A stretch of DNA of 39,862 nucleotides from Acaryochloris sp. IP29b_bin.176 (lineage in GTDB: Bacteria > Cyanobacteriota > Cyanobacteriia > Thermosynechococcales > Thermosynechococcaceae), in contig JANQPU010000164.1 of assembly GCA_028285315.1 (NCBI GenBank), positions 1 through 39,862 on the forward strand, given 5' to 3'. Numbering within the stretch: the first letter of the stretch is position 1; every line of letters begins with the position of its first letter. A program made the translations under genes and the position numbers. A model generated the notes under the pieces. It was not told the DNA's origin. It saw nothing but the letters and a program-made list of their open reading frames with translations, and did no database searches. This document shows, piece after piece, positions 6,170-23,169 of the stretch.

Positions 6170-6196
6170 CGTGGGTTAGTTTCCTGGTCTTCACCG

Positions 6197-7477
6197 ATGC
6201 CTAATCTCCCTTTGTCTGAGCAAGTTTGGTCATTAAATCACGGTATATTTATTGATCAATGCGTTCAGCAACAGAATCTCTTAATTATTCAAGATTTAGA
6301 CGGGGTCTGTATGGGCTTGGTCAAAGACCCATTGACTCGTACCATCGATCCAGCCTATGTTCGTGCTGCCCAACAGCTAGATGGAAATTTTTATGTTCTC
6401 ACCAATGGTGAACATATTGGCAATAGGGGCGTGAATTATATTGTTGAGCAAGCCTTTGAACCAGATATCGTTGCTAAAGAAGGACTCTATTTACCGGGCC
6501 TTGCAGCGGGTGGGGTTCAATGGCAGGACCGATTTGGTACCGTTTCCCATCCAGGTGTGAGTTCTCAAGAGTTAGAGTTTCTCGCGTCTGTCCCCCAGCG
6601 GATCACCCAGCATTTACAGCAATATTTTCAGGTGCGAGCCGAGAATGACTCGCGAATTCAACCCTGTATCCAAGCTGCTGTTCTGGATAACCCCGTTTCG
6701 CCGACTGCAAATCTCAATGTATTCTATGACCATTTTGTAGATCAGATAGAACAGTATGGCCACCTGCAGCAAGAGATGCAGGGGTTGATGACGGAATTAT
6801 TGCAACAGGCTCAGGCTCAAGGACTCAGTCGGTCATTCTTTGTCCATTACGCTCCTAATTTGGGGAAAGACGAGCAAGGAAATGAAATTTTGCAGCCTGC
6901 CACACCGCAAGATGCTGGAACCACAGATTTCCAATTTATGTTGCAAGGCGGTATCAAAGAAGTTGGAGTGCTAGTGATCTTGAATCGCTATTATCACCAA
7001 TGCACCGGGCACTATCCTCTAGGCGAGGACTTTAACGCGCGACAGGCTCCCCAATCCCAGGTTGCATTAATGGCATTAGTCAAAGAAAACTTTGACCCCG
7101 CTCATATGCCCATTCTTATCGGTGTTGGGGACACAGTCACTAGCAAGGCTGTTGAAGAAGATGGAGAATTGCGGTTTCAGCGCGGAGGGAGCGATCGCAA
7201 CTTCTTACACCTCATTCAAACCCTTGGTCGAGAATTTAAGACTGACAATGTCGTTGGCTATGTTGATAGTAGTGGCGGCGAGGTCAAAAATCGCAAGCCA
7301 TTACAGCTAGAACTTGTACCTACTAATGCAATCGGTGCAAGCTCATATCGGGTCATTGCTGGCCCTGGAGATGATCGAGATACAGAAGACCCGTTAACCC
7401 TCAATGTAGTCTTTCCAAAAGGTCATACACAGTACATTCAGTGTTTTCGGGAAATTGCTCAGCGCCGCAAGCCATAA
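6197..7477 (+). CDS. stpA: Glucosylglycerol-3-phosphate phosphatase
   Basis: The 426-residue protein matches the cyanobacterial salt-tolerance phosphatase StpA (GgpP) along its whole length, and the length is as expected. It removes phosphate from glucosylglycerol-phosphate, the second step in making the osmolyte glucosylglycerol. The HAD-like catalytic motif IIQDLDGVCM (D33 and D35) is near the N-terminus, and FYVLTNGEH follows at about residues 69-77. The partner synthase gene ggpS is in this window at 25952-27457. The gene lies 27 bases behind the radical SAM gene and ends 4 bases from the convergent giant gene on the other strand, with no clear terminator between them. Confidence 0.93.
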   Translation: MPNLPLSEQVWSLNHGIFIDQCVQQQNLLIIQDLDGVCMGLVKDPLTRTIDPAYVRAAQQLDGNFYVLTNGEHIGNRGVNYIVEQAFEPDIVAKEGLYLPGLAAGGVQWQDRFGTVSHPGVSSQELEFLASVPQRITQHLQQYFQVRAENDSRIQPCIQAAVLDNPVSPTANLNVFYDHFVDQIEQYGHLQQEMQGLMTELLQQAQAQGLSRSFFVHYAPNLGKDEQGNEILQPATPQDAGTTDFQFMLQGGIKEVGVLVILNRYYHQCTGHYPLGEDFNARQAPQSQVALMALVKENFDPAHMPILIGVGDTVTSKAVEEDGELRFQRGGSDRNFLHLIQTLGREFKTDNVVGYVDSSGGEVKNRKPLQLELVPTNAIGASSYRVIAGPGDDRDTEDPLTLNVVFPKGHTQYIQCFREIAQRRKP

Positions 7478-7481
7478 AAAC

Positions 7482-10400
7482 TTAGACGGTGCTGTTAAAA
7501 GACCAATTCAAAATATCTTGGTCGTTGGTCCGTCCACCAGTACCAGCGGTAAACCCGACAAAGGCTTGATTTCCTAAGGTACCCGCTAAATCAATATTGG
7601 TGGATAGCACTGCATCGACGGGTTGGACGTCAGTGTCGGATAAATACACTCGCAGCAAGTCCGTGTCGCCGTCATAGTCCACCCAAGCGGTTAGAGGATT
7701 GCCATTATTTAAGTCAAAGGGAGCATTCACCGAAGCGAGCGCAGTGTCCACACTCCCATTCCTCAAAATAGATAAGTGGTTGTTATTGATATCGATAGCA
7801 CCATTATCGTAGGTATCGAATTCAATAGCGATACTATTGGCAATGCCTGCATAGCCTAAACTGCCACCTAGTCCGCCTAAAGCATTCGCTCCTGACGTAC
7901 TGTTTTGCAGGACTAAGGTAAAACCATCTGCACCATCAGTACCTTGGCCTCCCGTAATCTGGAATTGGAATTGAGTTGAGAAGCTGGTATCACTATCCAC
8001 TTGGAAGGCTTGATTGATAAAGGCACTCCCAGTTCGCCTACCACTGTCGGGTGTTAGACGGAGCCGATCGTTGTTGCCTGTCGCACTACCATTGAGATTA
8101 AGGGAGGAGAGGTCGGCAAAATTATCGAAGGATGTCGATAAATTGGGTTGTGGAGATTGACCGGAACTTACAGGATCCCAGCGTAAGATTTCCCCAGAGG
8201 CAAGATCAACACCATAAAGTCGACCATCAGGTCCCATCTTCATATCCACTACAAAGGGTATATTGGAATCAAAGACCTGGACATTCGAGATTTGGCGGTT
8301 GCTATCAAACGTAGCCGCATAGAGAGTGCCGTTATTAACATCCCCAAACATCAACGTATTGCTGTTGTAGAAATCTCCTACGGTGATAGCGTTAGCATTA
8401 TCGGGTGCTCCATGACTGCGCGATAACAGAGGAAAAACGGCTGCTGCATCTCCGGGATTATTTCGATTGCCGTTGCTGTAGAAGGAGGCGGCTTGGGACA
8501 GATCCTGATAGCCACCCGTTCGGTTGGGGCCTTCTAGGTAAGGCCAGCCAAAGTTAGAGCCTGCTACCCCGGTATTGATCTCTTCCCAACGGGTCCAACC
8601 GACATCACCAATGACGGGGAGCTGGGTGACAGGGTCAAAGGTAAACCGATAGGGGTTGCGGAGTCCTGAATAAAAAACCTTAGATGAGTTGCTGTTGGCA
8701 TCACCATTAAAGAAAGGATTGGTGGTAATGCCTTCACCTGTAATTGGATCGATGCGTAGAACCTTGCCCGATAAATTGTTGACATCCTGCACACGGACAC
8801 CACGAGGATCCGTGAAATTGAAGGACGTTCCATCTCCATTACTGAGATACAAGTACCCATCGGGTCCAAACTCTAAATCGCCAATGGAGTGGGATGTACT
8901 ATCTGTGGCTAGATAATCTCGAATATTTTGATTTTGCGTGCCAGGACGATCCGGATCGTTGTCTTGGGTGCCTGTATCAATTTGGTCAGCGGGAGCGGTG
9001 ATGGTGGTACCGTTGACGATACCAGACGGAAGAATTGAAATATTGCCAGTACTATTGCTATCTGGCTGACTGGTATAGGCCCAGGTGCTGTTAGTACCTG
9101 CTAAGACAACTAAGCTGTTTGGGTCGGCAACCATTGTAGTGGGATCGATCGTGAGTCTTACCATCCGCGAGGGGCGATTTCCATTGGCGTCGGGGGCGGC
9201 TAAGCCTGAATTGCCGATCGTTTCAGGAGGATCATAGGTATAGAGCAGATAGACATAGGGGGTGTTGGGGAAATCGGGATGAATCGCTAAACCCAGCAAG
9301 CCGCGATCGCGAGTATCATTCACTTGGCTAGATAGATTCACTAAGGGGGTGGATTGAAGCACGCCATTGTCAATGACTCGAACAACCCCGTTCTTTTGAG
9401 CAACCAGCATATATCTGCCATCAGGAGTCCAGTCCAGAGTAGTGGGTTGGATTAAGCCTGAGACTGCAGTGGTGCGATTAAGGTCACCTAAGGCTAAATC
9501 ATTATCGAGAATGGTGATATTGGTGGTGATGGTATTCCCAAGGATCCCCCCGGTCGGATTGCTGAGGGTAACAGCAAAGGTTTCGTCCCCTTCCACAAAG
9601 GCATCATTGAGAATAGGAATTGTCAGGGTTTGGGTGATTTGTCCAGCAGCAAAGTTCAGGGTACCGGAAGTTGCTGTGTAGTCTTCGCCAGCAACCGCTG
9701 TGCCATTACTGGTACTGAAGTCAACTGAAGCTGCACCAGAACTATCGCCGCTGCGCTGAACGGTGATCGAGGCTGTGGCCGTTCCTTCTTCCACGCTAAT
9801 GGCGGTATCCGTCACCGATAATGTGGATGCTGCATCATCATCAACAATTGTAATTAGGGCGGTGCGAGGTGCCCCTAAGCTACCATTGCTAGCATTTTGG
9901 ATGCCAACCGCAAAGGTTTCATTCCCTTCAAATAAGGTGTCATCAATAATCGGGATAGTGAAGGTCTTTTCCGTCTCGCCAATCTCGAAAACAATTTCGC
10001 CCGTATTGTCTCGCCCATTCAAGGTGGGAGGGGTGAAATCGACGTCGGCTGAGGCGGCATCTGCACCTCCCACTTCATTAGTGGTGTACTCAAGGGTAGC
10101 TCGGACCAGTGCCTCTCCTGTGCGGACTGCCGTAACAGTGACGACACCCGCAGATTCATCGACCAAAATCGGATCGGTATCCGCTAAGGAAAAGGTATCC
10201 GTAACTGGATCGGGTGTTTCTAGGAGGCCAGTATCCAGGGCTAAATAAGCCACATCTTCAAAGACATGTCGGGTTTCACTGTCTCTCGATTGCTCTTCTT
10301 CTAAAAATAGAGTTGCGCCCGTTGTGCCTAGGCTGCGATAGCGAATCGCAAAAGGATCGCCGCCATTGCTGGTGTTGGCCTGGGCTAAGACTATGGGTGT

Positions 10401-11531
10401 GTTGCCCCCACTGAAGACACTGTTAAAGCTGGCATTGGTATTCCGATGATCACTAGCGATTTGATCAGCAATATAAGGGATGGTACCAAAGGTGCCGCTA
10501 CTGGGTGCGATCGCAATCCAGTCTATGTCTTCAACCGCATGGGTTTGGTCAGTCAATTCTTCCTCTTGCAGTCGCAAATCAAATCCCGTCGGTGTAACAT
10601 TCCTGATACGCTCTGCAACGGCAAAGCGTTCATTCTCGCTCGTGGTTTGGGCAAATAATAATGGAGTGTTGGTAAAGGGGGTAGAAAAATCAATCGCTCC
10701 CCAATTGCTATTACTCTGGTTAGTTCCAGCTTGGAGGACGGTACCATCCGCTAAGGTATGAGTGCCTTCCTCAACGACTAAATAGCCAAGAGATTCCGTG
10801 GTGTGCCATTCGTCGAGGTACTCCCACTCATCAATGCGGACCTCGAAACTATTATTGGTTACATTCCGGATCCTGACCGTGGTGGGATGAGGTCCATTAA
10901 AGGAGGGAGGACCAGCGACTACAACGGGATTGGTATAGATTTCTTGAAGGGTAATGCGGGTCCATTGGTGATTGAGATTGTCGATTCTGCCACTTTCGCC
11001 AATGGTGGCTAAGGTACCTTGATAGGTCGATTGCCCTGTTTGACTCAATGCAACAGTGGCTTCTAAAGGCCCCACGCTTGTTTCTAGAGACCAGTTGCCA
11101 CCTTGCCCCGTTAAATCATCAGAGGCAGCCACATCGGCATTCGTTAGAGCACTGATATCTTGCAGAAGGGTTAATCCGTCATTCCCAGCACCGATATTGC
11201 AGCCGTAGAACAACAGATCGCCCTGTTCTGTCAGGGCCTCTCCCCAGCTTTCAAGGTCAGTTGCGTAAGTGTTGACGGTGCTTTGATTTAAGGCTGTATT
11301 GCCAAGTTGGATCGATCCTTGACTGCCGTGAGAAATGATGTGAATACTATCTAGATCCTGGAATTGAGACAGAGTGTGGGAAATTTGCTCAATAGTATCT
11401 GTTTGATTATTGAGTACAAAAACCTGATCCACGTTTAACTCTTGGATGAGGACATCCGTTTGTGCCAGTCCAGGAGCAATAAAAGCTACAGACAGGGGGG
11501 GATGCCCCTGGTTAAAAGAATTATGATTCAT
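7482..11531 (-). CDS. Giant surface protein: DUF4347, H-type lectin repeats, Calx-beta, sorbosone-dehydrogenase propeller, L-type lectin
   Basis: The 1349-residue protein has at least five domain types. Residues about 13-172 are a DUF4347 domain (IHIISHGS, LLFYGCNIGAG), common at the N-terminus of large cyanobacterial secreted proteins. Residues about 186-435 hold three repeats of an H-type-lectin-like fold, with recurring RIRNVT...F..R and a following acidic cluster. Two Calx-beta calcium-binding domains follow (about 445-567 and 570-678, each ending in DDD or DND). A PQQ-glucose/sorbosone-dehydrogenase-like beta-propeller runs from about 690 to 1130 (RGLLGLAIHPDF, GLRNPYRFTFDP, SNFGWPYLEGP). 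The last 200 residues are a legume-lectin-like fold (DGFTLVLQN, IAIEFDTYDN). There is no Sec signal peptide, so type I-like export is likely but no exporter lies nearby. Substrate and attachment are unknown. Confidence 0.85.
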   Translation of the reverse strand: MNHNSFNQGHPPLSVAFIAPGLAQTDVLIQELNVDQVFVLNNQTDTIEQISHTLSQFQDLDSIHIISHGSQGSIQLGNTALNQSTVNTYATDLESWGEALTEQGDLLFYGCNIGAGNDGLTLLQDISALTNADVAASDDLTGQGGNWSLETSVGPLEATVALSQTGQSTYQGTLATIGESGRIDNLNHQWTRITLQEIYTNPVVVAGPPSFNGPHPTTVRIRNVTNNSFEVRIDEWEYLDEWHTTESLGYLVVEEGTHTLADGTVLQAGTNQSNSNWGAIDFSTPFTNTPLLFAQTTSENERFAVAERIRNVTPTGFDLRLQEEELTDQTHAVEDIDWIAIAPSSGTFGTIPYIADQIASDHRNTNASFNSVFSGGNTPIVLAQANTSNGGDPFAIRYRSLGTTGATLFLEEEQSRDSETRHVFEDVAYLALDTGLLETPDPVTDTFSLADTDPILVDESAGVVTVTAVRTGEALVRATLEYTTNEVGGADAASADVDFTPPTLNGRDNTGEIVFEIGETEKTFTIPIIDDTLFEGNETFAVGIQNASNGSLGAPRTALITIVDDDAASTLSVTDTAISVEEGTATASITVQRSGDSSGAASVDFSTSNGTAVAGEDYTATSGTLNFAAGQITQTLTIPILNDAFVEGDETFAVTLSNPTGGILGNTITTNITILDNDLALGDLNRTTAVSGLIQPTTLDWTPDGRYMLVAQKNGVVRVIDNGVLQSTPLVNLSSQVNDTRDRGLLGLAIHPDFPNTPYVYLLYTYDPPETIGNSGLAAPDANGNRPSRMVRLTIDPTTMVADPNSLVVLAGTNSTWAYTSQPDSNSTGNISILPSGIVNGTTITAPADQIDTGTQDNDPDRPGTQNQNIRDYLATDSTSHSIGDLEFGPDGYLYLSNGDGTSFNFTDPRGVRVQDVNNLSGKVLRIDPITGEGITTNPFFNGDANSNSSKVFYSGLRNPYRFTFDPVTQLPVIGDVGWTRWEEINTGVAGSNFGWPYLEGPNRTGGYQDLSQAASFYSNGNRNNPGDAAAVFPLLSRSHGAPDNANAITVGDFYNSNTLMFGDVNNGTLYAATFDSNRQISNVQVFDSNIPFVVDMKMGPDGRLYGVDLASGEILRWDPVSSGQSPQPNLSTSFDNFADLSSLNLNGSATGNNDRLRLTPDSGRRTGSAFINQAFQVDSDTSFSTQFQFQITGGQGTDGADGFTLVLQNSTSGANALGGLGGSLGYAGIANSIAIEFDTYDNGAIDINNNHLSILRNGSVDTALASVNAPFDLNNGNPLTAWVDYDGDTDLLRVYLSDTDVQPVDAVLSTNIDLAGTLGNQAFVGFTAGTGGRTNDQDILNWSFNSTV

Positions 11532-12154
11532 TGTTATAAATAGAGTGAGGTAAGCAGATTACGATAGAACCCCTTAGCTTTGTATTTTTTACCTAGGAAC
11601 AGGTCTGCATCATTCAAAACCATGATGGTAGGAAAGCCCACGGAAACCCTTGGAACCTCTAAAGCTCAATAAAGTCCCAAAACAAACCTCTTGCGGGGAT
11701 TGTGCCTCGCAATCATGTTGATAGTTCTAAATTCAGAAAAGAATCTTCTGAAGCAGCGAAAATGATGCCAGTTACGTCATCTCAGCGGATGGATGTTAAG
11801 TCATCATCATATGAGATTATTCTCTAATGCAGATATTATAGTCTCTCTACTGAGAGCCTAATTTAGGCTGAGTTTATATTAGCAATTAATAGATTTTTTT
11901 GAACGTTTAATAGTTGTACATTAATTAATTTTCTGCGTAATTAAATCCACTTGATGGCAATAGTTAAGCAGGGCATCACCAATGGTGCATTCTTCCAATA
12001 AACCTCGTTAAAAATAGGCCCATGCTTGAAAAGTAAACCTAGGCTTGATTATACAAATCCAAGAATTAGGCCAACCGATTATGGATACTGCCTTTTGTAA
12101 TCGCCTTATTCGCCTCATTGACCCTCAACACAGCAAACGGATGTTTGACCCATG
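11532..12154. other. Intergenic region, AT-rich
   Basis: These 623 bases separate the start of the giant surface gene from the end of the small outer-membrane protein gene. The stretch from about 11815 to 11945 is very AT-rich and is the likely place for the promoter of the minus-strand giant gene. A plus-strand ORF of 33 codons (12081-12182) overlaps the end of the next gene. It has no ribosome-binding site and no known relatives that I recognise. I see no RNA gene or mobile element here. Confidence 0.5.
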
Positions 12155-12937
12155 TTATGGATTAAATGAGTGCCAAACCTGAACTTCAATTCCACTGGCA
12201 TCAGGACCCGTGACGTTCTTGAACCCCCCTAAGACTAAAGTTGTCTTATCAAGGACTTTCCAACGGACTTGACCAATCAATTTGGTAATATTCGTCTCTT
12301 CCGGCCTAAAAACGAGATCGTCCTGAAGGGTACGAACATAATCGACCTGAGCGGCAAGAGAGACGGGTTGAGCGATCGCTTGATTGACTTCAGCAAAGAC
12401 TCGCAGCTCATCGCTTTGAGACCCAAAGTAATCTCGATAGGCAATCTCCACCGTCCAATAACCCTCTCGGTTGCCCAATTGGTAGCTTTGGCTCAGGGGC
12501 AAGCGGAGTTCTGCTCCAAAGACATCTCTGCCGAGGGCTGGACTGGCATTCGCATCATAACCAGGCGGTAAGATCAAAATCCCTTGGATAGAGGCGGCTA
12601 GGGAATCATTTTTGAAATACCTCCAACGAGCGCCCAGTTCTAGATCGGCTATCCCTTGGTTGGTGAGTCCTGCTTGCTCAAGCCATTGGTAAGGAACTTT
12701 GAGAATCAGCGTTATATCCTCTCTTAACCCATACTCAACGTAGCCTTGCAATTCTAGCTTCTCAAAATCACCCGATTCAAAGGTGCGAAACGTAACACTG
12801 GTAAACACCTCCCCTTGGGGTTGAGTGAAGCCGCCAGCGATCGCACGAACAGCTCCACCGCACACTAGCAAGCCTCCCAGACTTAGGCTGGCGATGGCTC
12901 GGAAAATGTGGGAGAGGGGGGAGAAATGTTTCATCAT
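12155..12937 (-). CDS. Small outer-membrane beta-barrel protein, last gene of the polysaccharide cluster
   Basis: From the ATG at 12937 the protein has 260 residues: a signal peptide (about 30 residues, hydrophobic core near IASLSLGGLLVCGG) and then alternating amphipathic strands (GYVEYGLREDITLILKVPY, LELGARWRYF) typical of a 10-12-strand barrel. The reading frame can be extended upstream to a TTG at 12976, but that would put 13 residues in front of the signal peptide, so I chose the ATG pair at 12934-12937. It follows the Tat-exported protein gene by about 50 bases on the same strand and is probably the last gene of the operon. By position it could serve as an outer-membrane exit for the glycan, but a barrel this small could also be a lipid-modifying or structural protein. 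Confidence 0.65.
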   Translation of the reverse strand: MMKHFSPLSHIFRAIASLSLGGLLVCGGAVRAIAGGFTQPQGEVFTSVTFRTFESGDFEKLELQGYVEYGLREDITLILKVPYQWLEQAGLTNQGIADLELGARWRYFKNDSLAASIQGILILPPGYDANASPALGRDVFGAELRLPLSQSYQLGNREGYWTVEIAYRDYFGSQSDELRVFAEVNQAIAQPVSLAAQVDYVRTLQDDLVFRPEETNITKLIGQVRWKVLDKTTLVLGGFKNVTGPDASGIEVQVWHSFNP

Positions 12938-12988
12938 AATCAACCAAAGGAAATGGGGGACAGGAATGCCACGCAACTGAAGTGGGGG

Positions 12989-14056
12989 CTAGCGGGTTAA
13001 GAGTTGCAAGGTCTGGGCCGCCGTTTGGGAAAAGTGGACATCTCCCTTCAGAAGGCCATAGTGCATGATCGAAAACTTATCTAAGCCCAGACTTTGCACG
13101 GATTGCAGCCAATCAGGCTGCATCATCAGTAAAAAATCATGGGTGACAATGTCGGCACGTCCTCCGTGGGGATGGTTTTCCTTAATGGAAGGTTCATAGT
13201 GAGACACCATCAAAGAGGAGTGATACTGGGAAAAGACTTGGCAGCACTTGAGGATTTGAGCCGGATTCCCCCAGTCGGGTCGATTGAGTTGCGGGTTGTG
13301 TTCGCCCGTCAGAAACGGTCGCATCGATTGAAAGGCAATGCCATCCATCTGGGCCATGGTGTCAGCGAAAGGGGGAATCATGCTTTGCCCTCGGCGCTGC
13401 TGCGGATCGTCAAAGGTGGTAATCCAACCGCCCCAACTGAGGGCCACCCATGCCTGGGGTAGTTGGCGGCGAATGATCTGTCGTGCCCGCAGGAGATTGG
13501 CCATCAATGCCTGGTAGTATGACTCCGTGTCCGCATTGTAGGTATCTGCCGGTAAGCGCCAATAGGAAAACTCCGTCGCCAACGTCCAGTAGGTGGGTCG
13601 CTGCTGGGGGTTAGCCTGGCGAATATAGGTGGCAATTTCTTCCAAGTCTGCTAGATATTGACGGGAAAGATGATACTCGCCCGTGGGTAATTGGCGATCG
13701 TCTTCCCAGGTAATTACTTGTAAGCCATAGCCTTGCTCAAACCATTGGCTGAGGCGGTCTTCCTGATGCCAAGTGCGCCAAAAACTTAAGTCGCCCGTTT
13801 GGTGATCAAAACTGTTGAGCCAAGCCGCCAGAAATTGAGGAGACCAGGCTTGCAGGAGGGCTTTGACGGCTGGATCTGTGTGAATTTCCTGGAGGAGTCG
13901 AGCCGGATCTTCACCCAGGCCCAGTTGCCACGGTGATCCTGGGGTAGGGGGCAATGACTGAGATTGGGCTGAGGTGGATCGACCCTGAGCTAGACTGGCT
14001 AGCACGGCAGTGGCAAAGGCCCCCTGTAAGTAGCGACGGCGAGAAAAGACGGTCAT
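12989..14056 (-). CDS. Tat-exported hydrolase-like protein of the polysaccharide cluster
   Basis: The 355-residue protein starts with a twin-arginine signal (SRRRYLQGAFATAVLASLA), which predicts export of a folded protein to the periplasm. The mature part alternates helices and strands as in a TIM barrel, with TYWTLATEFSYWR (a candidate acidic catalytic residue) and WVALSWGGW as possible strand ends. I do not recognise a named family. A glycoside hydrolase is the best guess because cellulose-type operons carry a periplasmic glucanase (BcsZ). Its ATG overlaps the stop codon of the upstream membrane protein gene by four bases (ATGA), so the two are almost certainly translated in a coupled way. 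Confidence 0.6.
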   Translation of the reverse strand: MTVFSRRRYLQGAFATAVLASLAQGRSTSAQSQSLPPTPGSPWQLGLGEDPARLLQEIHTDPAVKALLQAWSPQFLAAWLNSFDHQTGDLSFWRTWHQEDRLSQWFEQGYGLQVITWEDDRQLPTGEYHLSRQYLADLEEIATYIRQANPQQRPTYWTLATEFSYWRLPADTYNADTESYYQALMANLLRARQIIRRQLPQAWVALSWGGWITTFDDPQQRRGQSMIPPFADTMAQMDGIAFQSMRPFLTGEHNPQLNRPDWGNPAQILKCCQVFSQYHSSLMVSHYEPSIKENHPHGGRADIVTHDFLLMMQPDWLQSVQSLGLDKFSIMHYGLLKGDVHFSQTAAQTLQLLTR

Positions 14057-15615
14057 GAGCGCTGCAACACTTGATAATAGGGAGAGTCAAAAATGGTGTG
14101 AAATCCTGGTACCGTCAAAGCTTCTTCAGAGTCAGGTTCGGCACCCATCTGTTGTGCCAATGGACGACGCACTGCGTCTTGCGATCGCAGAGGCGATCGC
14201 GCCCCTGCGACCACAATCCAACCAACCCATTGGTTTGGATAGTCCAGGGCCACATCAAACTCATATTGGTGGGGGAGAATCAGCCCCTCCGTATTGTGGA
14301 GGAGATACAGGATGGGGAAGTGGAGGCGATCATCCATCAAAATATGCTGCTGGGGTTGCCGAGTCTGAAACAAATATGCGGTGATTTTTCGCTGTTCTAT
14401 CGTTTTTTGGTGGAGCTGTTGGGCGGGTTGAAGTTCAGGTAAGTGCTGATGCGTGAGGTGTCGCCACAGCAGAATTTCATCTGGAATGACTTGATTTTGT
14501 TGCAACACCCAGCCACTGGACACCAAACTGACGGCTAACCCCAGCGTGATCAACAGTTTCCGCCAGGACTGCCTTGAGGGAAGCTGCCCTAGCAAAAGCG
14601 GCAGGAGCGCCAGATAAACCCCAAATTGACTGAGATTAGGAGTATAGAGCCCTTCCCATAGGTTGATCAGCAGCAGGACGATGGGCAAAGCTAGGATCAA
14701 TCCTACTTGCAGATGAAATTTCGTCCGCCAGATTAACCACACCATCAATAGGACATAAATAGGAGCAATTTGGATCATCCAACTGATGATCTTTAGGATG
14801 CCCTCCCCTACCCCGGCTTGCACAAAAAAGGAGTCCAAACCGGGTAATCGAACCCCACTACCGGGCTGACTCAAGAAGGCGAGGGGATTGTCCGTTGCCA
14901 GCCAGTTGAGATAGACACAAGTTCCAATGGCAAAAAGACTCATGGTCAGGACAATGAACAGAGCTGCTGCTCGATATTGCCAGGTTTCTGCCAGCAGCAG
15001 ACACCAAAGAGCAATGAGGATAAATACCAGTCCCCACCAAGCTTCAAATCGCAGCAGCATCAGTCCAGCAACCGTGAGCCCCACCAAAACGACTAGAAAG
15101 CTCAGCGGCAAGTCTTGGGGCTGGAGGATCTGCCACAGAAGACGCAGGGTAATCAAGAGTAGTAGCGTTGTAGCCACCCAGGTCGGGTCTCGTAACAGCA
15201 TCAGACCAAAGGCGGGGTGGAGCAGGATCAGCATCGTCCACAGGATTTGCCACAATCGAGACACCCCAAGCTTGCCCATGGTGCGGATGACTGACCCCAC
15301 GAGCAAGGTACCGCTGATCACCTGTAGGATCACAGGCGATCGCACCAAGGCACTGCCATACACCAGTAAGGGCGGAAAGGCATAGCCTGTAGCTACAAAA
15401 CTGGGCTCTGGCCCTTGCACTGCCAGGATCGCCTTGCTCCCTAAAAACGCAATGGGCTGAGGAATGTAGCCTTGCCAATCCAGCCCGATCACCAGGCCAG
15501 AAAGTCCAAGAATTGTCAGCACGCGCACGGCCCAGATCGCAGGCCCCTGTTGGCTGTCGAGGTTGGTGGGTAAAGACCGATCACCCTGTGTGCTTTTTGA
15601 CCTTACTGAGACCAT
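14053..15615 (-). CDS. Multi-spanning membrane protein, GT-C glycosyltransferase-like
   Basis: From ATG 15615 the protein has 520 residues with about ten to eleven transmembrane helices up to roughly residue 365 and then a soluble C-terminal part of about 150 residues. This layout (membrane body with a conserved short loop region plus a periplasmic tail) resembles GT-C glycosyltransferases that use lipid-linked sugars, but no diagnostic motif is visible, so the assignment is weak. The open frame reaches back to 15678 inside the synthase gene; ATG 15615 is preferred because a GGGAG lies about 10 bases upstream. Even so the gene overlaps the end of the synthase gene by 35 bases. It overlaps the next gene by four bases, so it belongs to the same operon. 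Confidence 0.6.
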   Translation of the reverse strand: MVSVRSKSTQGDRSLPTNLDSQQGPAIWAVRVLTILGLSGLVIGLDWQGYIPQPIAFLGSKAILAVQGPEPSFVATGYAFPPLLVYGSALVRSPVILQVISGTLLVGSVIRTMGKLGVSRLWQILWTMLILLHPAFGLMLLRDPTWVATTLLLLITLRLLWQILQPQDLPLSFLVVLVGLTVAGLMLLRFEAWWGLVFILIALWCLLLAETWQYRAAALFIVLTMSLFAIGTCVYLNWLATDNPLAFLSQPGSGVRLPGLDSFFVQAGVGEGILKIISWMIQIAPIYVLLMVWLIWRTKFHLQVGLILALPIVLLLINLWEGLYTPNLSQFGVYLALLPLLLGQLPSRQSWRKLLITLGLAVSLVSSGWVLQQNQVIPDEILLWRHLTHQHLPELQPAQQLHQKTIEQRKITAYLFQTRQPQQHILMDDRLHFPILYLLHNTEGLILPHQYEFDVALDYPNQWVGWIVVAGARSPLRSQDAVRRPLAQQMGAEPDSEEALTVPGFHTIFDSPYYQVLQRS

Positions 15616-17998
15616 GCTGAGTCTTCTCCCAATAAAAGGGCTTAGTAAACAGTTGCCAGAGGGCCATATAGGAGGCAATGGAATGGAGCTGCCAGTAGAT
15701 GGGATTGAGGAGGGCGTAGGGCAACAGCTGAAAATAGCGACGCCGAAACACCGCTGTCATGTTGAGGTAAATTCCCAAGGCATTCCCTAACAAGAGACAG
15801 ACTAGGGACAAGTACAGGGTCCAACTAGGGAACAAGTAGACCAGCCAAGTTTCGCGGGTGAGTAGCCAATAAAAATAGATCAGCCACAAAAAGGGGCTGC
15901 TGAGAAAGGCGACAATGGTGCCGCCAATAAAAAACTGATAGGCGAGCCAGTTTTTGAGACCAAGTTTACGAATCGATTTCCAGGGGTTACGATTATGCAC
16001 CAGCCACGTTTGCATATAGCCCTTAATCCAGCGCGATCGCTGGCGAATCCAATTTTTGGTTTGGCAATTCGCTTCTTCGTAGGTCGTGGAATTGATCACT
16101 CCCACGACATATCCTCGCTGGCTGGCTCGAATGCCTAAATCGGCATCTTCTGTTACATTAAATGGATCCCAGCCTCCTAATTGGCGCAAGAGATCGGTGC
16201 GAAAATGGTTACTGGTGCCGCCTAAAGGAATGGGAAATTGAAAGGATTCTAGTCCCGGCAGCAAACAATCAAACCAATAGGAATATTCCAACGTGAACAT
16301 CCGCGTTAGAAAATTCTCATCTCGGTTGAAATAGTTCAGTGCCGCTTGCACACAGGCGAGATTAGACGGCCCATTTTTAAAGGCCCACACGGCCTTAAGC
16401 AACTGATCAGGATCAGGGATATCTTCCGCATCATAGATGGTGAGATACTCGCCTCGGGCAAAGGCCAATCCGTAGTTACAAGCTTTGGGCTTGGTTTTAG
16501 GTTGACTATCGGGGATTAAAATAAACCGCACAAATCCCGGTGGATTGGCAGCTCGACTGGCTTCCAGAGTTACTTTATCTTTTTCTTCAAGGAGTAACAA
16601 TACATCCAGCTTTTCTTGGGGATAGTCTAGTTGCCGTAGCGCCTCAATCAAAATCGGTATCACTTCCGGTTCGTTGTAGACCGGGACCAGAACGGTATAG
16701 ACCGGTAACGATTGGGGTTGGAAATTTAAGGTCTCCCATCGGCCATGCTGTTGTTGGCGAACTTTGAGCCCTTGGACGCTCAGAATCAGCTTAAAGCCAA
16801 TGGCAATCACAAAGAACAAGTTGAGCACTAACATCACACCAGCTAGGGCTCCCCAAAAATGATGAGAGAGCAACCATAGCCCCATGACCGATAAACCATA
16901 CAACGTCAACAGTTGCGGAACTGTAAACACCCGTGCCGCCGACTCGTGGGGTGCCCGTTTGAGCAGTTGATAGATGGCGCGATCAGAAAAATCCTTGCGA
17001 AAATACTGGGCTAATAAGGTTGTAATATCTCTTTCTGTCCCCAAAACTTTGATAATCTCGATACCCGGAAATTTTTGATGAAGGATAGATTCGACCTCCG
17101 AGTTATAGGGATTTCGGATCACCACCTGAAGGGAACGCTCTCCTACCCAGGCTAGCGGGAAAAAATGGTGATCCATCATTGCTCTGGGTTGGAAGTTCTG
17201 AGCGAGTTGCACATCCACTTCTAAAAAATCTGTGCCCACCAACATGGAAATAATGGGAAGTTTGGCAAACTGGTTGAGGCGATCTTGATAACTCAGCTCC
17301 GAGAGATAGCCGAGTCGCGTCATAATGTCTCCCAGGGGCGATCCAGTCCGAGCCTGCACGAGCTGAATTTCGCGCTGTTGAGCCGGGGTCAGTTGTTGTT
17401 CCATCTGCTGCCAAATTTGCCGATCCACTTGATCCTGATAGATTTGATTGGCAATAAAACCAGAGCGAGCTAGCGCCTTAACAAAGGGAGAGTCGATGCT
17501 CTGAAAGGTTTTGGTTGGCAGCGCTTGGCGCAGCTGATCACAAGCCTGGGGCAATCGTCCCAGGCGTTGACCCATTAACAGGGCCAGCAATTGATTTTTG
17601 GTGATGGAAAGTTGCTCGAGGGTAACTTGGGGCCACACTCGATGCACCAGTTGCTTAATCTCAGGTTGATCAAACTGAACCACTGCAATCACCAATGTGT
17701 TCTCTGCCGTTAGGGCGCAGGGGAGAAACTCCAGTTTAATCAGTTGCTGAATCGGAAAATGATGGGCCAAGCGCTCGTCAATGTCATGTCCTGGGATTTG
17801 CAGCCACCCAGAAATAAAGGTTTGGTGTAATCGGCGAGAAATTTCTTGAGATAACTGGCTTTGAGAGGTGAAATCAAGCTGATCCAGGTTCTGCTGTAGG
17901 GTCTGAATCATGACATGTTGCACCAACTGCCAATGTTCGGGAGAAATATAGCCTCGGGAAATGAGATAAAAGCCCAGTTGTGTCAGTCTGTCACTCAT
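15581..17998 (-). CDS. Processive family 2 glycosyltransferase with tandem GspE-N/MshEN-like domains
   Basis: The 805-residue protein joins two modules. Residues 1-345 carry two GspE-N-like repeats: the first opens QLGFYLISRGYISP (7-20), the second PLGDIMTRLGYLS (221-233), each followed by the alpha/beta portion seen in type II secretion ATPases. After a membrane segment at about 362-408 comes a GT2 synthase domain with DAED (523-526), TEDAD (616-620) and QRSRW (653-657), the acidic pairs and QxxRW that mark processive bacterial glycan synthases. Further helices at about 680-780 complete the pore region. There is no C-terminal PilZ domain as in BcsA. NfrB-type synthases also combine GT2 with a GspE-N domain. 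The sugar used is unknown. It is encoded between a BcsB-like protein and a GT-C-like protein. Confidence 0.88.
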   Translation of the reverse strand: MSDRLTQLGFYLISRGYISPEHWQLVQHVMIQTLQQNLDQLDFTSQSQLSQEISRRLHQTFISGWLQIPGHDIDERLAHHFPIQQLIKLEFLPCALTAENTLVIAVVQFDQPEIKQLVHRVWPQVTLEQLSITKNQLLALLMGQRLGRLPQACDQLRQALPTKTFQSIDSPFVKALARSGFIANQIYQDQVDRQIWQQMEQQLTPAQQREIQLVQARTGSPLGDIMTRLGYLSELSYQDRLNQFAKLPIISMLVGTDFLEVDVQLAQNFQPRAMMDHHFFPLAWVGERSLQVVIRNPYNSEVESILHQKFPGIEIIKVLGTERDITTLLAQYFRKDFSDRAIYQLLKRAPHESAARVFTVPQLLTLYGLSVMGLWLLSHHFWGALAGVMLVLNLFFVIAIGFKLILSVQGLKVRQQQHGRWETLNFQPQSLPVYTVLVPVYNEPEVIPILIEALRQLDYPQEKLDVLLLLEEKDKVTLEASRAANPPGFVRFILIPDSQPKTKPKACNYGLAFARGEYLTIYDAEDIPDPDQLLKAVWAFKNGPSNLACVQAALNYFNRDENFLTRMFTLEYSYWFDCLLPGLESFQFPIPLGGTSNHFRTDLLRQLGGWDPFNVTEDADLGIRASQRGYVVGVINSTTYEEANCQTKNWIRQRSRWIKGYMQTWLVHNRNPWKSIRKLGLKNWLAYQFFIGGTIVAFLSSPFLWLIYFYWLLTRETWLVYLFPSWTLYLSLVCLLLGNALGIYLNMTAVFRRRYFQLLPYALLNPIYWQLHSIASYMALWQLFTKPFYWEKTQHGLSKVKKHTG

Positions 17999-18156
17999 GA
18001 TCTAATACCCTTTAGGGATGGCTATCGTGCGATGGTCTCCGACCGACCTACGTCCAAGGGACCGGCTATGCTTTTCATGTTGCTCCGCGAAACAGCCATC
18101 GCAACACCGCTTTGCAATCTTGCTAAGCCCTGGCAATAGCTGTTTTTGGCGTCGAA

Positions 18157-20241
18157 CTATGCATCAGAATGCGGATCTGCAGGTGGAACACTACCTTCAG
18201 CGGTGGGTTGAGGCTCATTTACCGAGTGGACAATGCTCTCTTGGGCCTTCTCCGATGGCTGTGCTTTCGAGGACTCTGGTGTGCCCGGCTGCGGTAAGCG
18301 CCCCAACTTCTTATAGAGATACCAGCATAGTCCGCCCCCCAGCCCAGCAATCAGAATAATGAACAGCCATCGATATCGACTCAGCCAAATTCTCCAGTCT
18401 AGGGCCTCAGGATAGTTGACCGTCAATGCTCTACCACTCAAGTCCCAGGAACGGACCTCTTGGAGTGACCCTGTAGAGGTGACAACATTGCCACGCATTC
18501 GTTGAGCCAGACCGGCTTGTGGATTTGCTAGCGATGACGTCAGTTGGGCGACCTTTTCAGCATCTGTGCCCCACCAGGACAGTCCTAAAGTGGGTTGATC
18601 TTGGTCATAGAAATACTGCAATAGCCCCAGAGAATCGGTGGGTTGTGCTGATAGAAGGACCTGTTGATTCAAAGGATTGATAATTTCAAAATTTTCCTGC
18701 AAGCGGATGGGGGCAGATGTGGGAAACTGTTCAGGTGCTACAGCAATAATTTGCCAAGTGCTCTCGTCGGCTTGGTTGATTAGCTGAGTCAATTGGTCAG
18801 GCGTTTCCCCTTTCACCAGTCTGGGGAAGATGGGCCGAGGGCTCATTTGATTCATCATCCCTAACAGATGGGCAGTGGATTGAATCAGTTCCGGTTGAGT
18901 ACCATCCACGACCATCCGACCTGGGCCTAAGAACTGATACGGTAGATCATTGAAAGTTTCTTCGGGCTGTTGCTCGCCACTCCAGGCTAAATAAGAGTCC
19001 CCCACCACTTGAAAGGTTAAATCGGAACCAGAGGCTTGGCAGTTTCCTTGGCTAGGGGCATGCTCAAAGACGATGTCTAGATCGTTGGTGCGCCGCAAAT
19101 TCTGAGTGGGTAAAAAGATCGTATCCTTTAGAGCGGTGGTTTGGGTGAGGTCATAGGTCTTCACTAAGGTGTTGTTGAGATAGATCTGACCATTGAGGCG
19201 ATCGCCATTCTGAACATTAACAGGTGTAAACAGACTGTTGAGCGACATCGCTAATTCTTGCGGACGAGTCTCCAATTGGGCTAGATCAAAATTAATACGG
19301 AACCGTTGGGTTCCCGATCCTCGCCTGGGACTTGTATCAAAGCCTAATTGTCGAAAAGAGATCCGCTGATCCTGGCTGCCTAGCGTATTTATGTCACCTG
19401 CATTGACCGCTGCTATAGCGGTTCCCTGGCTGCTAAACGGAACGCCGCCCCAATCAACCGCTAAACCCTTGACCACTTTGGGATCAGCACGCACCGTCAG
19501 GGTTGATCCTTTACGATTAATATCTGGTCCTGTGGTGCCGACATCTAAGCGCACTTGAGCACTATTAGGAGCAACCTTGGCAGTGGCGGTCTGCCAAAGT
19601 ACGGGGATTTGACGTTTACTGAAGTGGCCTGCTAGAAAGCCATACAGCCATAAGGCCGACTCCAGTTGCGCCGTGTCCAAATTGTTGGGCACGCTTAAGA
19701 CGACCTGGGGATAGGTGCCTGCAAAAAAACCATTAATGCTTTGATCTTCAACGTTGGGGATAATTTGGAAGAAACTGTCATTCTCGACGGTCAAATAGAG
19801 ATTGCCACTTTGGAGAGCATCACAAACGTCTTGCTGAGTAAAGAGATAGGGCGCTAAGGTGACTGAGATAAATGGCTCCCCTGTGGGTAGAGCCGAAATA
19901 GGAATCTTGAGGGTAGATTGCTTCCTCAGGGCTTCCACAGATGTCGCTACAATCGGTTCTTCATTCAGGAGGACACGAATGGATGAGTCTTTGTTCAGAA
20001 ATGGGGAAGGTTTAATCTGAAGGTTGAGAAAACTATTTTTAGTGTCTATGCCTCCAGGCGGCTGAGGAATACTAAATGTCAACTGGGGATTGATCCCTTT
20101 GAGGACAATATTGCGGCTATATCCTAAAGATTTAAGGGGGGTGATTTGGGGTGGGACTGCGCCGATGGATAAGGGACACCACAGTACACTGAGGGTGACA
20201 AATCCTGAGCAAAATAGGACTTGAGATTGATCGAAGCTCAT
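18157..20241 (-). CDS. BcsB-like periplasmic subunit of a polysaccharide synthase
   Basis: From ATG 20241 the protein has 694 residues: an N-terminal signal or anchor segment (about 12-28), a large beta-rich periplasmic region, and a single transmembrane helix near the C-terminus (WLFIILIAGLGGGLCWYLY) followed by a charged, Pro/Ser/Glu-rich tail. The composition, length and topology, and phrases such as NGFFAGTYPQVVLSVPNN and DLTFQVVGDSYLAW, fit the BcsB family. BcsB sits in the periplasm, is anchored by one helix and guides the nascent glycan from the synthase. It lies 158 bases upstream of the GT2 gene on the same strand and should be the first gene of the operon. The open frame extends to a TTG at 20265, but the ATG is more likely. 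Confidence 0.75.
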   Translation of the reverse strand: MSFDQSQVLFCSGFVTLSVLWCPLSIGAVPPQITPLKSLGYSRNIVLKGINPQLTFSIPQPPGGIDTKNSFLNLQIKPSPFLNKDSSIRVLLNEEPIVATSVEALRKQSTLKIPISALPTGEPFISVTLAPYLFTQQDVCDALQSGNLYLTVENDSFFQIIPNVEDQSINGFFAGTYPQVVLSVPNNLDTAQLESALWLYGFLAGHFSKRQIPVLWQTATAKVAPNSAQVRLDVGTTGPDINRKGSTLTVRADPKVVKGLAVDWGGVPFSSQGTAIAAVNAGDINTLGSQDQRISFRQLGFDTSPRRGSGTQRFRINFDLAQLETRPQELAMSLNSLFTPVNVQNGDRLNGQIYLNNTLVKTYDLTQTTALKDTIFLPTQNLRRTNDLDIVFEHAPSQGNCQASGSDLTFQVVGDSYLAWSGEQQPEETFNDLPYQFLGPGRMVVDGTQPELIQSTAHLLGMMNQMSPRPIFPRLVKGETPDQLTQLINQADESTWQIIAVAPEQFPTSAPIRLQENFEIINPLNQQVLLSAQPTDSLGLLQYFYDQDQPTLGLSWWGTDAEKVAQLTSSLANPQAGLAQRMRGNVVTSTGSLQEVRSWDLSGRALTVNYPEALDWRIWLSRYRWLFIILIAGLGGGLCWYLYKKLGRLPQPGTPESSKAQPSEKAQESIVHSVNEPQPTAEGSVPPADPHSDA

Positions 20242-20830: not shown

Positions 20831-21157
20831 TCAATGAGATGAGGTATATGTATAGGTTTGTTCAAATTCTTGGCGATCACTATAAATTCTAAACAGTTTA
20901 TCTAGCTGAGTGAGTTCAATGATGCGTTGTGCTTGTAGGCTCAAGCCACAAAGAATGATTTCAGAATCCTGCTGTTTGGCCTCTTTTGAAATAGCTACTA
21001 AAACACCCAGAAATGAGCTATTCATGAACTCGATGTTGCAACAATCCAATAGAATAGCCTGGGTACCAGCATCAAGGAGATATCCAAGCTCAAGTCGTAA
21101 TCTGTCGATACAATGGGCATCTAATATGCTAGTCAAGTGAACGATTGCATGGGTCAT
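20831..21157 (-). CDS. STAS-domain protein (anti-sigma factor antagonist type)
   Basis: The 108-residue protein is a single STAS domain of the SpoIIAA/anti-anti-sigma type. The key loop reads CNIEFMNSSFLGVLVAI: the usual DSSG becomes NSSF, so the phosphorylatable serine is kept while the flanking Asp and Gly are changed. Such proteins switch partner kinases or sigma/anti-sigma pairs, and many cyanobacterial ones act with Hpk/PP2C-type response systems. No kinase or phosphatase partner is encoded nearby. It is on the same strand as, and about 590 bases upstream of, the polysaccharide cluster, which makes a regulatory link possible but unproven. Confidence 0.85.
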   Translation of the reverse strand: MTHAIVHLTSILDAHCIDRLRLELGYLLDAGTQAILLDCCNIEFMNSSFLGVLVAISKEAKQQDSEIILCGLSLQAQRIIELTQLDKLFRIYSDRQEFEQTYTYTSSH

Positions 21158-21640
21158 TGGAGCTTATCCTCGTCACGAAATAGTAATGCCTACCTCGCAA
21201 CTTCTTCATCCCCACTTTGTCGGAGGTAACCATTACTCTGACTATAGAAAATTAGCTGATGTGCTTGAACCGTCTTTCTGCGGATATTCTCAGCTGATAA
21301 TGACGTCAATCAGCGTCAAGCAATAATGAAGGTTTTGTCGAGAGGTGAGAGTTTTAAAGGTCATTAGAAATACGGACTTGAGGCTGGAGGACTGGCCAAG
21401 TCGATGGTATATTCAGCCCTATTTCAGTATTTATACGGGCTTTGGCCAGGGATCGAATGCTGACCCAGCACAAAAACTGCCCTTGATTCGGTCCAATGGC
21501 GAATCCTTAAGTCGATCGGTCCTCTCAAAACAGCCGGTGTGCTCAACTTGATCAACCGCAGGGTACGTGAATCTACAGAGCAGACAAGTGCCCATAGCGA
21601 TCGCACAAGGACTGGGCCAATGGGGTAAGGGTAGGACGCT
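21158..21640. other. Intergenic region without supported gene
   Basis: Between the start of the STAS gene and the end of glpK. Short overlapping frames exist on both strands (for example 21345-21551 plus), but none has a ribosome-binding site or recognisable domain. I see no terminator with a T-run behind glpK. Confidence 0.45.
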
Positions 21641-23152
21641 TTAATCAGTTGCCCAATCTTTAGACCGATCAACTGCTTTTTGCCAGGTTTTGAAATTGGC
21701 TTGAGCCGTTTGGGCTTTGGCACTGGGCTTAAAGACTTGATCGATTTTGCGCGCAGCAACTAAGGCAGTATAGTCTTGCCACAACCCAATCGCTAATCCT
21801 GCACCAAAGGCTGCACCCTGGGCGGTCGCGTCTAGAACCGCAGGCCGTTCGACGGGAATGCCTAAAACATCAGCTTGATACTGCATTAAGAAACTGTTTT
21901 CGCAGGCTCCACCATCGACCTTTAGCTCTTGAATGGGAGTGCCGCAATCTTGATTGACTGCATCGACGACTTCCTTGGTTTGGTAGGCGATCGCTTCTAG
22001 GACAGCCCGCACCATATGTTCTCGCTGGGCTCCGCGCGTAATCCCAAGAAAGGCTCCCCGAGCACTCATGTCCCAATGGGGAGCACCCAGCCCACTGAGG
22101 GCCGGGACAAAATAGACGCCGCCATTATCTTTGACGGCTTGGGCTAATCCTTCGGTTTCTGCGGCGTTAGTAATCAGCTTCAGGCCATCCCGCAACCACT
22201 GAATACAGGCACCAGAGGTAAACATACTCCCTTCAATCGCATATCCCGTGTGTGTTTGGTCATTTTGGGTTGCTGTCCAGGCCACGGTAGAAAGCAGGCG
22301 GTTACTGGAGCGGGCTATTTCACTCCCGGTATGGGCCACCAAAAAGGAGCCTGTACCATAGGTGCATTTGAGAGAACCAGGGCGATCGCAACCGTGAGCG
22401 AACAAAGCCGCTTGTTGATCGCCAAAAATAGCAGCAATGGGAATTTCCTGGCCTAGGAACTTGGCATCAGTTTTGCCAAAGACCCCTAAACTGGGCTGAA
22501 TCGCAGGCATGAAAGACTTGGGAATACCAAATAAATTGAGGAGATGGTCATCCCAGATGCCTTGGCTTAAATTCAGTAACAGGGTACGGCTGGCATTGCT
22601 GTGATCAGTCGCATGAACTTTGCCTCCCGTCAGATTCCAAAGGACCCAGGTATCAATCGTGCCAGCGAGGACATTCTCTAAATCGAGATTAGGGGTTTGC
22701 TTTTTAACCTCTGCCAGGAGCCACGCTAACTTACTCCCTGAAAAATAGGCATCGAGGACTAGGCCCGTGCGATCGTAAATCTCCTGGGTATAACCTTGCT
22801 CTGCGAGCTGGTTGCAATAGGCAGCGGTGCGACGGTCTTGCCAGACAATGGCTTTGTGCAATGGCTGACCCGTGGTTTTATCCCATAGCAGACAGGTCTC
22901 TCGCTGTACCGTCAGGCCGATGGCTGCAATCTGGGCTGGATCAATTTGGGCTTTAGCCACCACCGTTTCCATGGCCCAGCGGGTGTCACGCCAGATTTCT
23001 AAAGCATCATGTTCCACCCATCCAGGCTGAGGATAGTACTGCGGAAGTTCCTTGTAGGCTTGATCAACAATCTGGCCATCATGGTCAAAGAGCATGGCAC
23101 GATTACCAGTGGTCCCCAAATCCAAGGCCATGATGTAGGTGGCTGAAGTCAT
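21641..23152 (-). CDS. glpK: Glycerol kinase
   Basis: The 503-residue FGGY-family kinase phosphorylates glycerol with ATP to glycerol-3-phosphate. The N-terminal phosphate-binding loop (MALDLGTTGNRAMLFDHDG), GWVEHDALEIW, the central YAIEGSMFTSGACIQWLRDG, and the FGGY signature region (ALSGLGAPHWDMSARGAFLG, then KVDGGACENSFLMQYQADVL) are all present, and the length is normal. A GAGGAAG ribosome-binding site sits just in front of the ATG. It follows the GghA-like gene by 17 bases on the same strand. This pairing makes sense: the hydrolase frees glycerol from glucosylglycerol and GlpK returns it to glycerol-3-phosphate, the GgpS acceptor. Confidence 0.95.
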   Translation of the reverse strand: MTSATYIMALDLGTTGNRAMLFDHDGQIVDQAYKELPQYYPQPGWVEHDALEIWRDTRWAMETVVAKAQIDPAQIAAIGLTVQRETCLLWDKTTGQPLHKAIVWQDRRTAAYCNQLAEQGYTQEIYDRTGLVLDAYFSGSKLAWLLAEVKKQTPNLDLENVLAGTIDTWVLWNLTGGKVHATDHSNASRTLLLNLSQGIWDDHLLNLFGIPKSFMPAIQPSLGVFGKTDAKFLGQEIPIAAIFGDQQAALFAHGCDRPGSLKCTYGTGSFLVAHTGSEIARSSNRLLSTVAWTATQNDQTHTGYAIEGSMFTSGACIQWLRDGLKLITNAAETEGLAQAVKDNGGVYFVPALSGLGAPHWDMSARGAFLGITRGAQREHMVRAVLEAIAYQTKEVVDAVNQDCGTPIQELKVDGGACENSFLMQYQADVLGIPVERPAVLDATAQGAAFGAGLAIGLWQDYTALVAARKIDQVFKPSAKAQTAQANFKTWQKAVDRSKDWATD

Positions 23153-23169
23153 GATCTTCCTCGTAGGGT

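Follow-up and report, generated by a model that had tools for sequence, protein, structure and literature searches.

Several bacterial gene clusters have been described in which a BcsB-like protein is encoded together with a family 2 glycosyltransferase (GT2). In stalk-forming iron oxidisers, sfz1 encodes a BcsB-like protein, sfz2 a protein with an EpsE-like N terminus and a GT2 domain, sfz3 (1499-1535 bp) a protein of no assigned function and sfz4 (971-1037 bp) a hydrolase-like protein, and sfz5 (929-983 bp), likewise of no assigned function, and a long sfz6 complete the cluster (PMC8250860); a bcsB-xagB-xagC-xagD-like cassette has also been described (PMC4643136). The five-gene cluster considered in this work lies in a 39,862-nucleotide stretch of DNA from Acaryochloris sp. 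IP29b_bin.176 (contig JANQPU010000164.1), and this whole stretch, at its full length, is referred to as the window. We propose that the cluster very probably encodes a machine of the xag/sfz kind for synthase-dependent exopolysaccharide production. The statement as a whole, that such a machine makes a polymer with a beta-linked mannose backbone which is decorated, trimmed and exported, is in our estimate evenly balanced between right and wrong.

A sequence-only reading of the window had described five genes on one strand as a glycan synthesis and export set of unrecognised type. All five reading frames were found intact on the minus strand, and are given here from ATG starts with TTG alternatives in brackets:

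18157-20241 (20265 from TTG), minus strand: BcsB-like periplasmic subunit, 694 residues (PF03170)
15581-17998, minus strand: GT2 polysaccharide synthase, 805 residues, with N-terminal MshEN (GspE-N) (PF13632, PF05157)
14053-15615 (15678 from TTG), minus strand: membrane glycosyltransferase resembling those of fold class C (GT-C-like), 520 residues (from a predicted model)
12989-14056, minus strand: exported protein of 355 residues with a twin-arginine-type leader, a putative carbohydrate enzyme of no named family
12155-12937 (12976 from TTG), minus strand: putative small outer-membrane beta-barrel, 260 residues (from leader, strand score and C-terminal pattern)

With the ATG starts, the overlaps are 35 bases between the GT2 and GT-C genes and 4 between the GT-C and 355-residue genes, and the barrel gene follows the 355-residue gene after a gap of 51 bases, as the overlaps and short gap had been reported; 158 bases lie between the BcsB and GT2 genes. 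Pfam names two of the five proteins, BcsB and the GT2 with MshEN; for the remaining three it gives nothing at E<=1. The domain identities and the linkage uphold a synthase-dependent glycan synthesis and export set. The label of an unrecognised type has to be given up, because the order and sizes match those printed for the xag/sfz/sfb cassettes (PMC8250860, PMC4643136). In both, adjacent genes for BcsB and MshEN-GT2, which in the window score over the Pfam cut-offs, are followed by three more; these encode 520, 355 and 260 residues in the window (1563, 1068 and 783 bp) and about 500, 330 and 315 residues in the cassettes, so that the last gene of the window is shorter (Table 2, PMC8250860). 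By description, the cluster is thus a cyanobacterial variant of the known xag/sfz kind, a likeness drawn from printed accounts and not from sequence. It differs in that the published description places sfz4 in glycosyl hydrolase family 10, whereas the 355-residue protein matches no family, and in that a sixth gene is described for sfz where the window set has five.

Other systems share parts of this arrangement. Like the window cluster, xagABCD of Xanthomonas is a putative GT2-based biofilm polysaccharide cluster, and a beta-1,4-mannanase has been implicated in dispersing the same biofilm; the comparison is by description, and the available parts of these accounts do not name BcsB within xagABCD itself (PMC3609779, PMC3528676). 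With BcsABZC the window shares a BcsB-like subunit, a processive GT2, an exported hydrolase candidate and an outer-membrane barrel candidate; it differs in the lack of PilZ, a CelA score far under cut-off, a hydrolase candidate that is not of glycoside hydrolase family 8 (GH8), an extra GT-C protein and a barrel of 260 residues without a TPR match. The NfrBA (NGR) system of E. coli also combines a GT2 carrying MshEN with an outer-membrane protein (PMC8669469, PMC8669472). However, MshEN is C-terminal in NfrB and N-terminal in the window GT2, and the 12 annotated features of the E. coli K-12 stretch include no gene for BcsB, GT-C or the 355-residue protein. For Achromobacter, a cluster of NfrB (MshEN-GT2) with a BcsB homologue has been mentioned (PMC8669472). 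In Listeria pssA-E a BcsB orthologue likewise accompanies a GT2 other than cellulose synthase; there the sensor of cyclic diguanylate (c-di-GMP) is a separate degenerate GGDEF protein, and the available part of the account does not mention a GT-C protein (PMC4125290). For cyanobacteria, cellulose loci have been described as lacking bcsB (PMC12430437), and a survey of the phylum, which reported BcsB domains from very few cyanobacteria, did not take BcsB on to its later analyses (PMC4594306). Among the literature matches listed there was no recognised account of this cluster in cyanobacteria, no mannan product of such synthases beyond the precedents PMC7710045 and PMC9032380, and nothing usable on Gloeomargarita or Thermostichus glycans. 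The imp clusters of Actinoplanes were considered as a precedent and rejected, as those are described as Wzx/Wzy- and GtrA-dependent.

Conservation and linkage of the five families

Of 244 cyanobacterial genomes, 2 encode the 355-residue protein by sequence search, and 3 of 386 match its family profile; both counts include the window's genome. A scan of GTDB contigs returned at least five loci, a lower bound because exact short peptides are required, and with the G177 region there are six loci besides the window (L016 and G332 are apparently one contig, counted once, and L004, L011, L017 and L019 all correspond to G177). Homologues of all five genes occur together in every one of these six loci by tblastn, with lowest identities of 57.9% (355-residue), 52.5% (GT2), 37.9% (BcsB), 33.2% (GT-C) and 25.8% (barrel), an outcome in favour of the sequence-only reading, which had named conserved synteny as a check. 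L012, L013 and L014 are co-linear like the window, two of the three records being named Acaryochloris. Linkage is not uniform, however, since L011, L015 and L016 carry BcsB-GT2 and the other three genes as divergent blocks. We label these three loci Thermostichus-type, a name which, like the identity of G177, is presumptive. Frameshifts in L013 (GT2 and GT-C) and L014 (BcsB) are possibly assembly errors. Between the divergent blocks of L015, a gene at 6708-7949 encodes a protein whose match to V4R stays below threshold (21.5 of 31 bits).

Among the 244 genomes, strong BcsB profile matches (584-1146 bits) and GT-C profile matches (372-852 bits) fell in the same four, namely G000, G177, G085 and G241; a weak row in G074 (19.6 bits, E 5.9e-4) was left out of the BcsB count. 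As G000 and G177 supplied rows to both profiles, only the further genus formed by G085 and G241 is an independent match, and the chance of this genus coinciding for BcsB and GT-C is about 1 in 107 (109 genera, if independent). A barrel profile made without the G085 and G241 sequences scored 216 bits in each of these two, in a search of five chosen genomes. The barrel profile used for all 244 genomes holds sequences of all four strong genomes and therefore tests only absence elsewhere; besides the strong matches (361-436 bits), it gave only rows in G004, G010 and G018 (28.6-37.3 bits), which were left out of the count.

In G085 and G241, the 20 kb around BcsB-GT2 contain no GT-C, 355-residue or barrel gene. 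The barrel gene lies at a separate site and is directly followed by a gene for a GH5-like protein of 447 residues; in G241 the GT-C gene comes next in convergent orientation, 8 bases further on, and in G085 it lies at yet another site. Scattering of the homologues, which had been named in advance as speaking against the five-gene reading, is therefore seen in part: the genes are dispersed in these two genomes, yet BcsB-GT2, GT-C and barrel still co-occur there. A local profile search found no relative of the 355-residue protein in either, and the search of the 244 genomes, a sample in which both are inferred to be included, gave no match to them. The 447-residue protein bears a leader and is unrelated to the 355-residue protein. 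It scores 18 bits against Pfam Cellulase (cut-off 23.5) and has 12 PDB matches at E<=1, named mannanase or mannosidase save one (glucosidase and MAN5A); two of the 12 lie below 0.001, the best being the mannanase 4awe (3.7e-5). Its replacement of the 355-residue protein is what would be expected if the position calls for a hydrolase.

Beyond cyanobacteria, a tblastn search of plasmids with the GT2 matched 125 records, and six of the best 15 were inspected. BcsB, GT2 and GT-C occur in that order in two of the six, L070 (Geobacillus; 156, 814 and 53 bits against our own profiles, respectively) and L071 (Hyphomicrobiales; 18.9, 626 and 20.7 bits, the BcsB and GT-C matches being marginal). In L075 (Nonomuraea) the GT2 has as its neighbour a protein matching PMT_2 below threshold (19.8 of 26.1 bits), and in L072 (Frigoribacterium) one without family; in L073 and L074 our profiles match the GT2 only. 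With the BcsB-like query, L070 was the one plasmid record matched. This 65 kb Geobacillus plasmid is typed as conjugative and encodes ManC, BcsB, MshEN-GT2 and a GT39-annotated gene at 5555-12292; its GT2 is 51.5% identical to that of the window over 75% of the query.

The window's own genome, which is 87% complete, has a single BcsB locus and five other GT2 matches, the best with 30% identity over residues 390-664. The cluster is adjoined at 7482-11531 (minus strand) by a gene for a 1349-residue protein with DUF4347, Calx-beta, glucose/sorbosone dehydrogenase and legume-lectin domains over cut-off. Upstream of BcsB, at 20831-25746, lie genes for a STAS-domain protein, a glycerol kinase and a GHL5 (PF14872) protein; this trio is also present in L012 and in none of the other five related loci.

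The five proteins and their proposed roles

The genes with their domains, conservation and linkage, and the GT-C-like model, were observed or computed; every biochemical step in the scheme proposed here is inferred. The GT2 would polymerise an activated sugar at the inner membrane and, with the BcsB-like subunit, would pass the chain outward, as BcsA-BcsB do for cellulose. The BcsB-like protein matches PF03170 with 56 bits (cut-off 21) as two partial stretches and stays below the cut-off of the NCBIfam BcsB model (14.1 bits, cut-off 1098); with its family profile, positions 40-157 align to solved BcsB chains (3.1e-8). It has an N-terminal leader and transmembrane-like stretches at 8-26 and, C-terminally, at 625-643. 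The GT2 matches PF13632 with 88.9 bits and PF05157 with 43.8 bits (cut-off 23.1), the latter in two MshEN stretches, and its processive motifs D(A)ED (523), TED (616) and QRSRW (653) are retained in 8/8 synthases checked. Its best PDB match is the cellulose synthase BcsA (8.5e-12) and its best NCBIfam model is CelA, with 75.2 bits far under the cut-off of 699.1; Pfam gave no PilZ domain at E<=1. Because CelA is below cut-off and PilZ is missing, cellulose was dropped as the first-choice product and kept as a rival. The Acaryochloris-type synthases have a stretch within the MshEN region, at about residues 147-195, that the Thermostichus-type ones lack.

The MshEN domain has been described as a c-di-GMP receptor with two 24-residue RLG...Q motifs that carry the contact residues (PMC5013675). 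In the window GT2 the best half-motif reaches 7/11, against 11/11 in one half of NfrB and 10/11 in the Geobacillus and Hyphomicrobiales relatives, and the match to NF053729 is 13.8 of 38 bits. The tandem motif scores 20/22 in the Geobacillus and 17/22 in the Hyphomicrobiales protein; strict tandem spacing gives 15/22 for both NfrB and G241, so that the tandem score alone fails to separate these two. Control of the window synthase by c-di-GMP, which the presence of MshEN had led us to expect, was dropped since the contact residues are not kept, and we now regard it as improbable; the cyanobacterial branch may, judging from these residues, have lost or changed its ligand.

The third protein is, with high confidence, predicted to have a GT-C fold, and the earlier GT-C-like assignment is upheld by a model built from eight sequences (mean predicted local distance difference test, pLDDT, 77.5; predicted template-modelling score, pTM, 0.79). 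By sequence it has no significant match in the PDB. A Foldseek search of the PDB with the model gave ArnT as best match (E 1.1e-4, template-modelling score 0.53) and seven matches at E<=0.001. Ranks 1-18 comprise ArnT, C-mannosyltransferase, oligosaccharyltransferases, AftA, AftD, AglB, PglB, Pmt4 and ALG3; all but rank 10, a translocon chain with an unspecific title, name what we take to be GT-C enzymes or complexes. This protein would attach a side sugar from a polyprenyl-phosphate donor at the periplasmic face, a decorating role for and against which we would give equal weight.

The 355-residue protein would trim or release the chain, as BcsZ does. Its leader is of the twin-arginine type, and it matches no Pfam or NCBIfam family. 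The predicted model is poor (pLDDT 52.4, pTM 0.56), with strands and helices alternating as in a (beta/alpha) barrel. With this low-confidence model, Foldseek gave no PDB match at E<=0.001; the weak matches, from 1.4e-3, include GH6 (the best) and GH5 and also aldolases, synthases and isomerases. Glu162, just behind strand 155-160, is invariant in 7/7 sequences and Glu288 is kept in 6/7. In the PDB, a sequence search matched just one chain, a short isomerase (E 0.74), and the family profile had a single match at E 0.064 (positions 1-71); a plasmid search gave no match at 1e-5. Membership of GH26, suggested by a layout that looked alike by eye, was rejected after hhalign against four GH26 sequences gave a probability of 0.3%; the values were 0.1% against GH5 and 1.6% against one GH113 sequence, and the GH5-like protein of G085 and G241 matched in the leader only. 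In the positive control, this GH5-like protein against GH5 gave 60.5%. The clan-level control of GH26 against GH5 itself failed (3.4%), and the hhalign nulls therefore leave a distant mannanase tie possible. The protein is probably a carbohydrate enzyme of no named family. For the hydrolase role given to it by the sequence-only reading, the low-confidence model is suggestive, as is the presence in two genomes of an unrelated GH5-like protein next to the barrel gene, and a trimming role could in our judgement go either way. The leaders of the relatives at L011:10360-11490 and L016:9974-11116 contain AGCG, an apparent lipobox, and these two relatives may therefore be lipoproteins.

The small barrel would assist the chain across the outer membrane. 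It has a leader and an aromatic C-terminal pattern with a VQVWHSF-type end. A home-made amphipathic-strand score exceeded the shuffle mean in 9/9 homologues; in eight of the nine, no more than 16 of 300 shuffles reached it, and for L012, 53 of 300 did. A PDB sequence search gave nothing significant (E 0.98) and Pfam no TPR match. These features hint at the channel function previously assigned to it, which we consider possible, at somewhat short of even likelihood.

The backbone sugar and rival readings

The backbone would most likely be beta-linked mannose from GDP-mannose, a prediction that we hold with as much doubt as conviction. In all three divergent-type loci (L011, L015 and L016), a small gene 80-148 bases upstream of BcsB on the same strand encodes the C-terminal domain of mannose-6-phosphate isomerase (PF01050). 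It scores 167 bits in L015 and 172 bits in both G177 and G332, and G177 and G332 each have one further copy at another site. In L070, the gene for a ManC-type protein shares 4 bases with BcsB; the protein scores over cut-off for PF00483 and PF01050 and under it for TIGR01479 (241 bits, cut-off 373). In L071, a GH113 protein (113 bits, cut-off 27) is encoded divergently beside BcsB, and all seven of its listed PDB matches at E<=0.01 are named beta-1,4-mannanase. GH113 genes have been noted near GT2 genes, some of them mannosyltransferase-like (PMC9032380). Together with the GH5-like protein, linked genes in four lineages suggest mannose and give the product, which had been called unknown, a candidate sugar.

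Several observations weigh against this proposal. None of the window and the three other Acaryochloris-type loci has a mannose gene beside the cluster (0/4), and there is no PF01050 gene at the BcsB-GT2 loci of G085 and G241 or at L071. The mannose signs were spotted post hoc, without a control count, and PF01050 is common, being present in 10/14 control genomes (7 over cut-off). The 355-residue protein has no profile match to any mannanase family (GH5, GH26 or GH113), and Glu288, the second candidate acid in it, is replaced by Gln in L014. In L071, BcsB falls under the Pfam cut-off (14.6 bits, cut-off 21) and the GT-C protein has no family. The c-di-GMP contact residues, as described above, are not kept in the window GT2.

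The same machine might make a glucose backbone, either cellulose-like or a mixed beta-glucan from UDP-glucose, with BcsB in its usual job. This would fit with BcsA as the best solved match and CelA as the best NCBIfam model of the GT2, and with GH6 and GH5 glucanases as the nearest folds to the poor 355-residue model; the CelA score far under cut-off, the missing PilZ domain and the mannose-linked genes in four lineages speak against it, and we consider it unlikely, although worth keeping in mind. A polymer based on N-acetylmannosamine (ManNAc) would have precedents in the E. coli glycan of NfrB, also a GT2 with MshEN, which has been proposed to use UDP-ManNAc (PMC8669469), and in a clostridial BcsA/B pair with GH113 and WecB that has been read as making a ManNAc-rich polymer (PMC7710045). 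However, both genes found beside BcsB, for the isomerase domain and for ManC, are part of the route to GDP-mannose and not of that to UDP-ManNAc; we consider this alternative distinctly unlikely. Finally, BcsB-GT2 and the trio of GT-C, 355-residue and barrel genes could be two separate systems that are merely adjacent, as the divergent blocks in L011, L015 and L016 and the separate sites in G085 and G241 would allow. We hold this to be very unlikely, given that strong BcsB and GT-C matches fall in the same 4/244 genomes, of which only the G085/G241 genus is independent, and that BcsB-GT2-GT-C recurs in L070 and L071.

Returning to the mannose backbone, we tentatively extend the proposal, at rather lower confidence, to clusters of BcsB, MshEN-GT2 and GT-C in general, probably including xag and sfz. 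These might form one family of dedicated bacterial beta-mannan synthases, in which GDP-mannose would be polymerised and exported in the fashion of cellulose and the GT-C protein would decorate the chain with side sugars on the outside. The place of BcsZ would be taken by turns by members of unrelated hydrolase families (GH5-like, GH113 and that of the 355-residue protein). The cluster kind itself is already known; new here are the identification of the GT-C protein, the exchange of hydrolases and the prediction of mannose. The Xag polymer and the substrate of the biofilm-dispersing mannanase have been named as open questions (PMC3528676), and the stalk matrix of iron oxidisers has been attributed to a cluster without known product (PMC8250860). 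If the mannose reading is true, a single enzyme assay would bear on several systems, and some cyanobacteria would gain a BcsB-type export route beside the cellulose route described as lacking bcsB (PMC12430437). The 355-residue proteins would then represent a family of exported enzymes that is still without a name.

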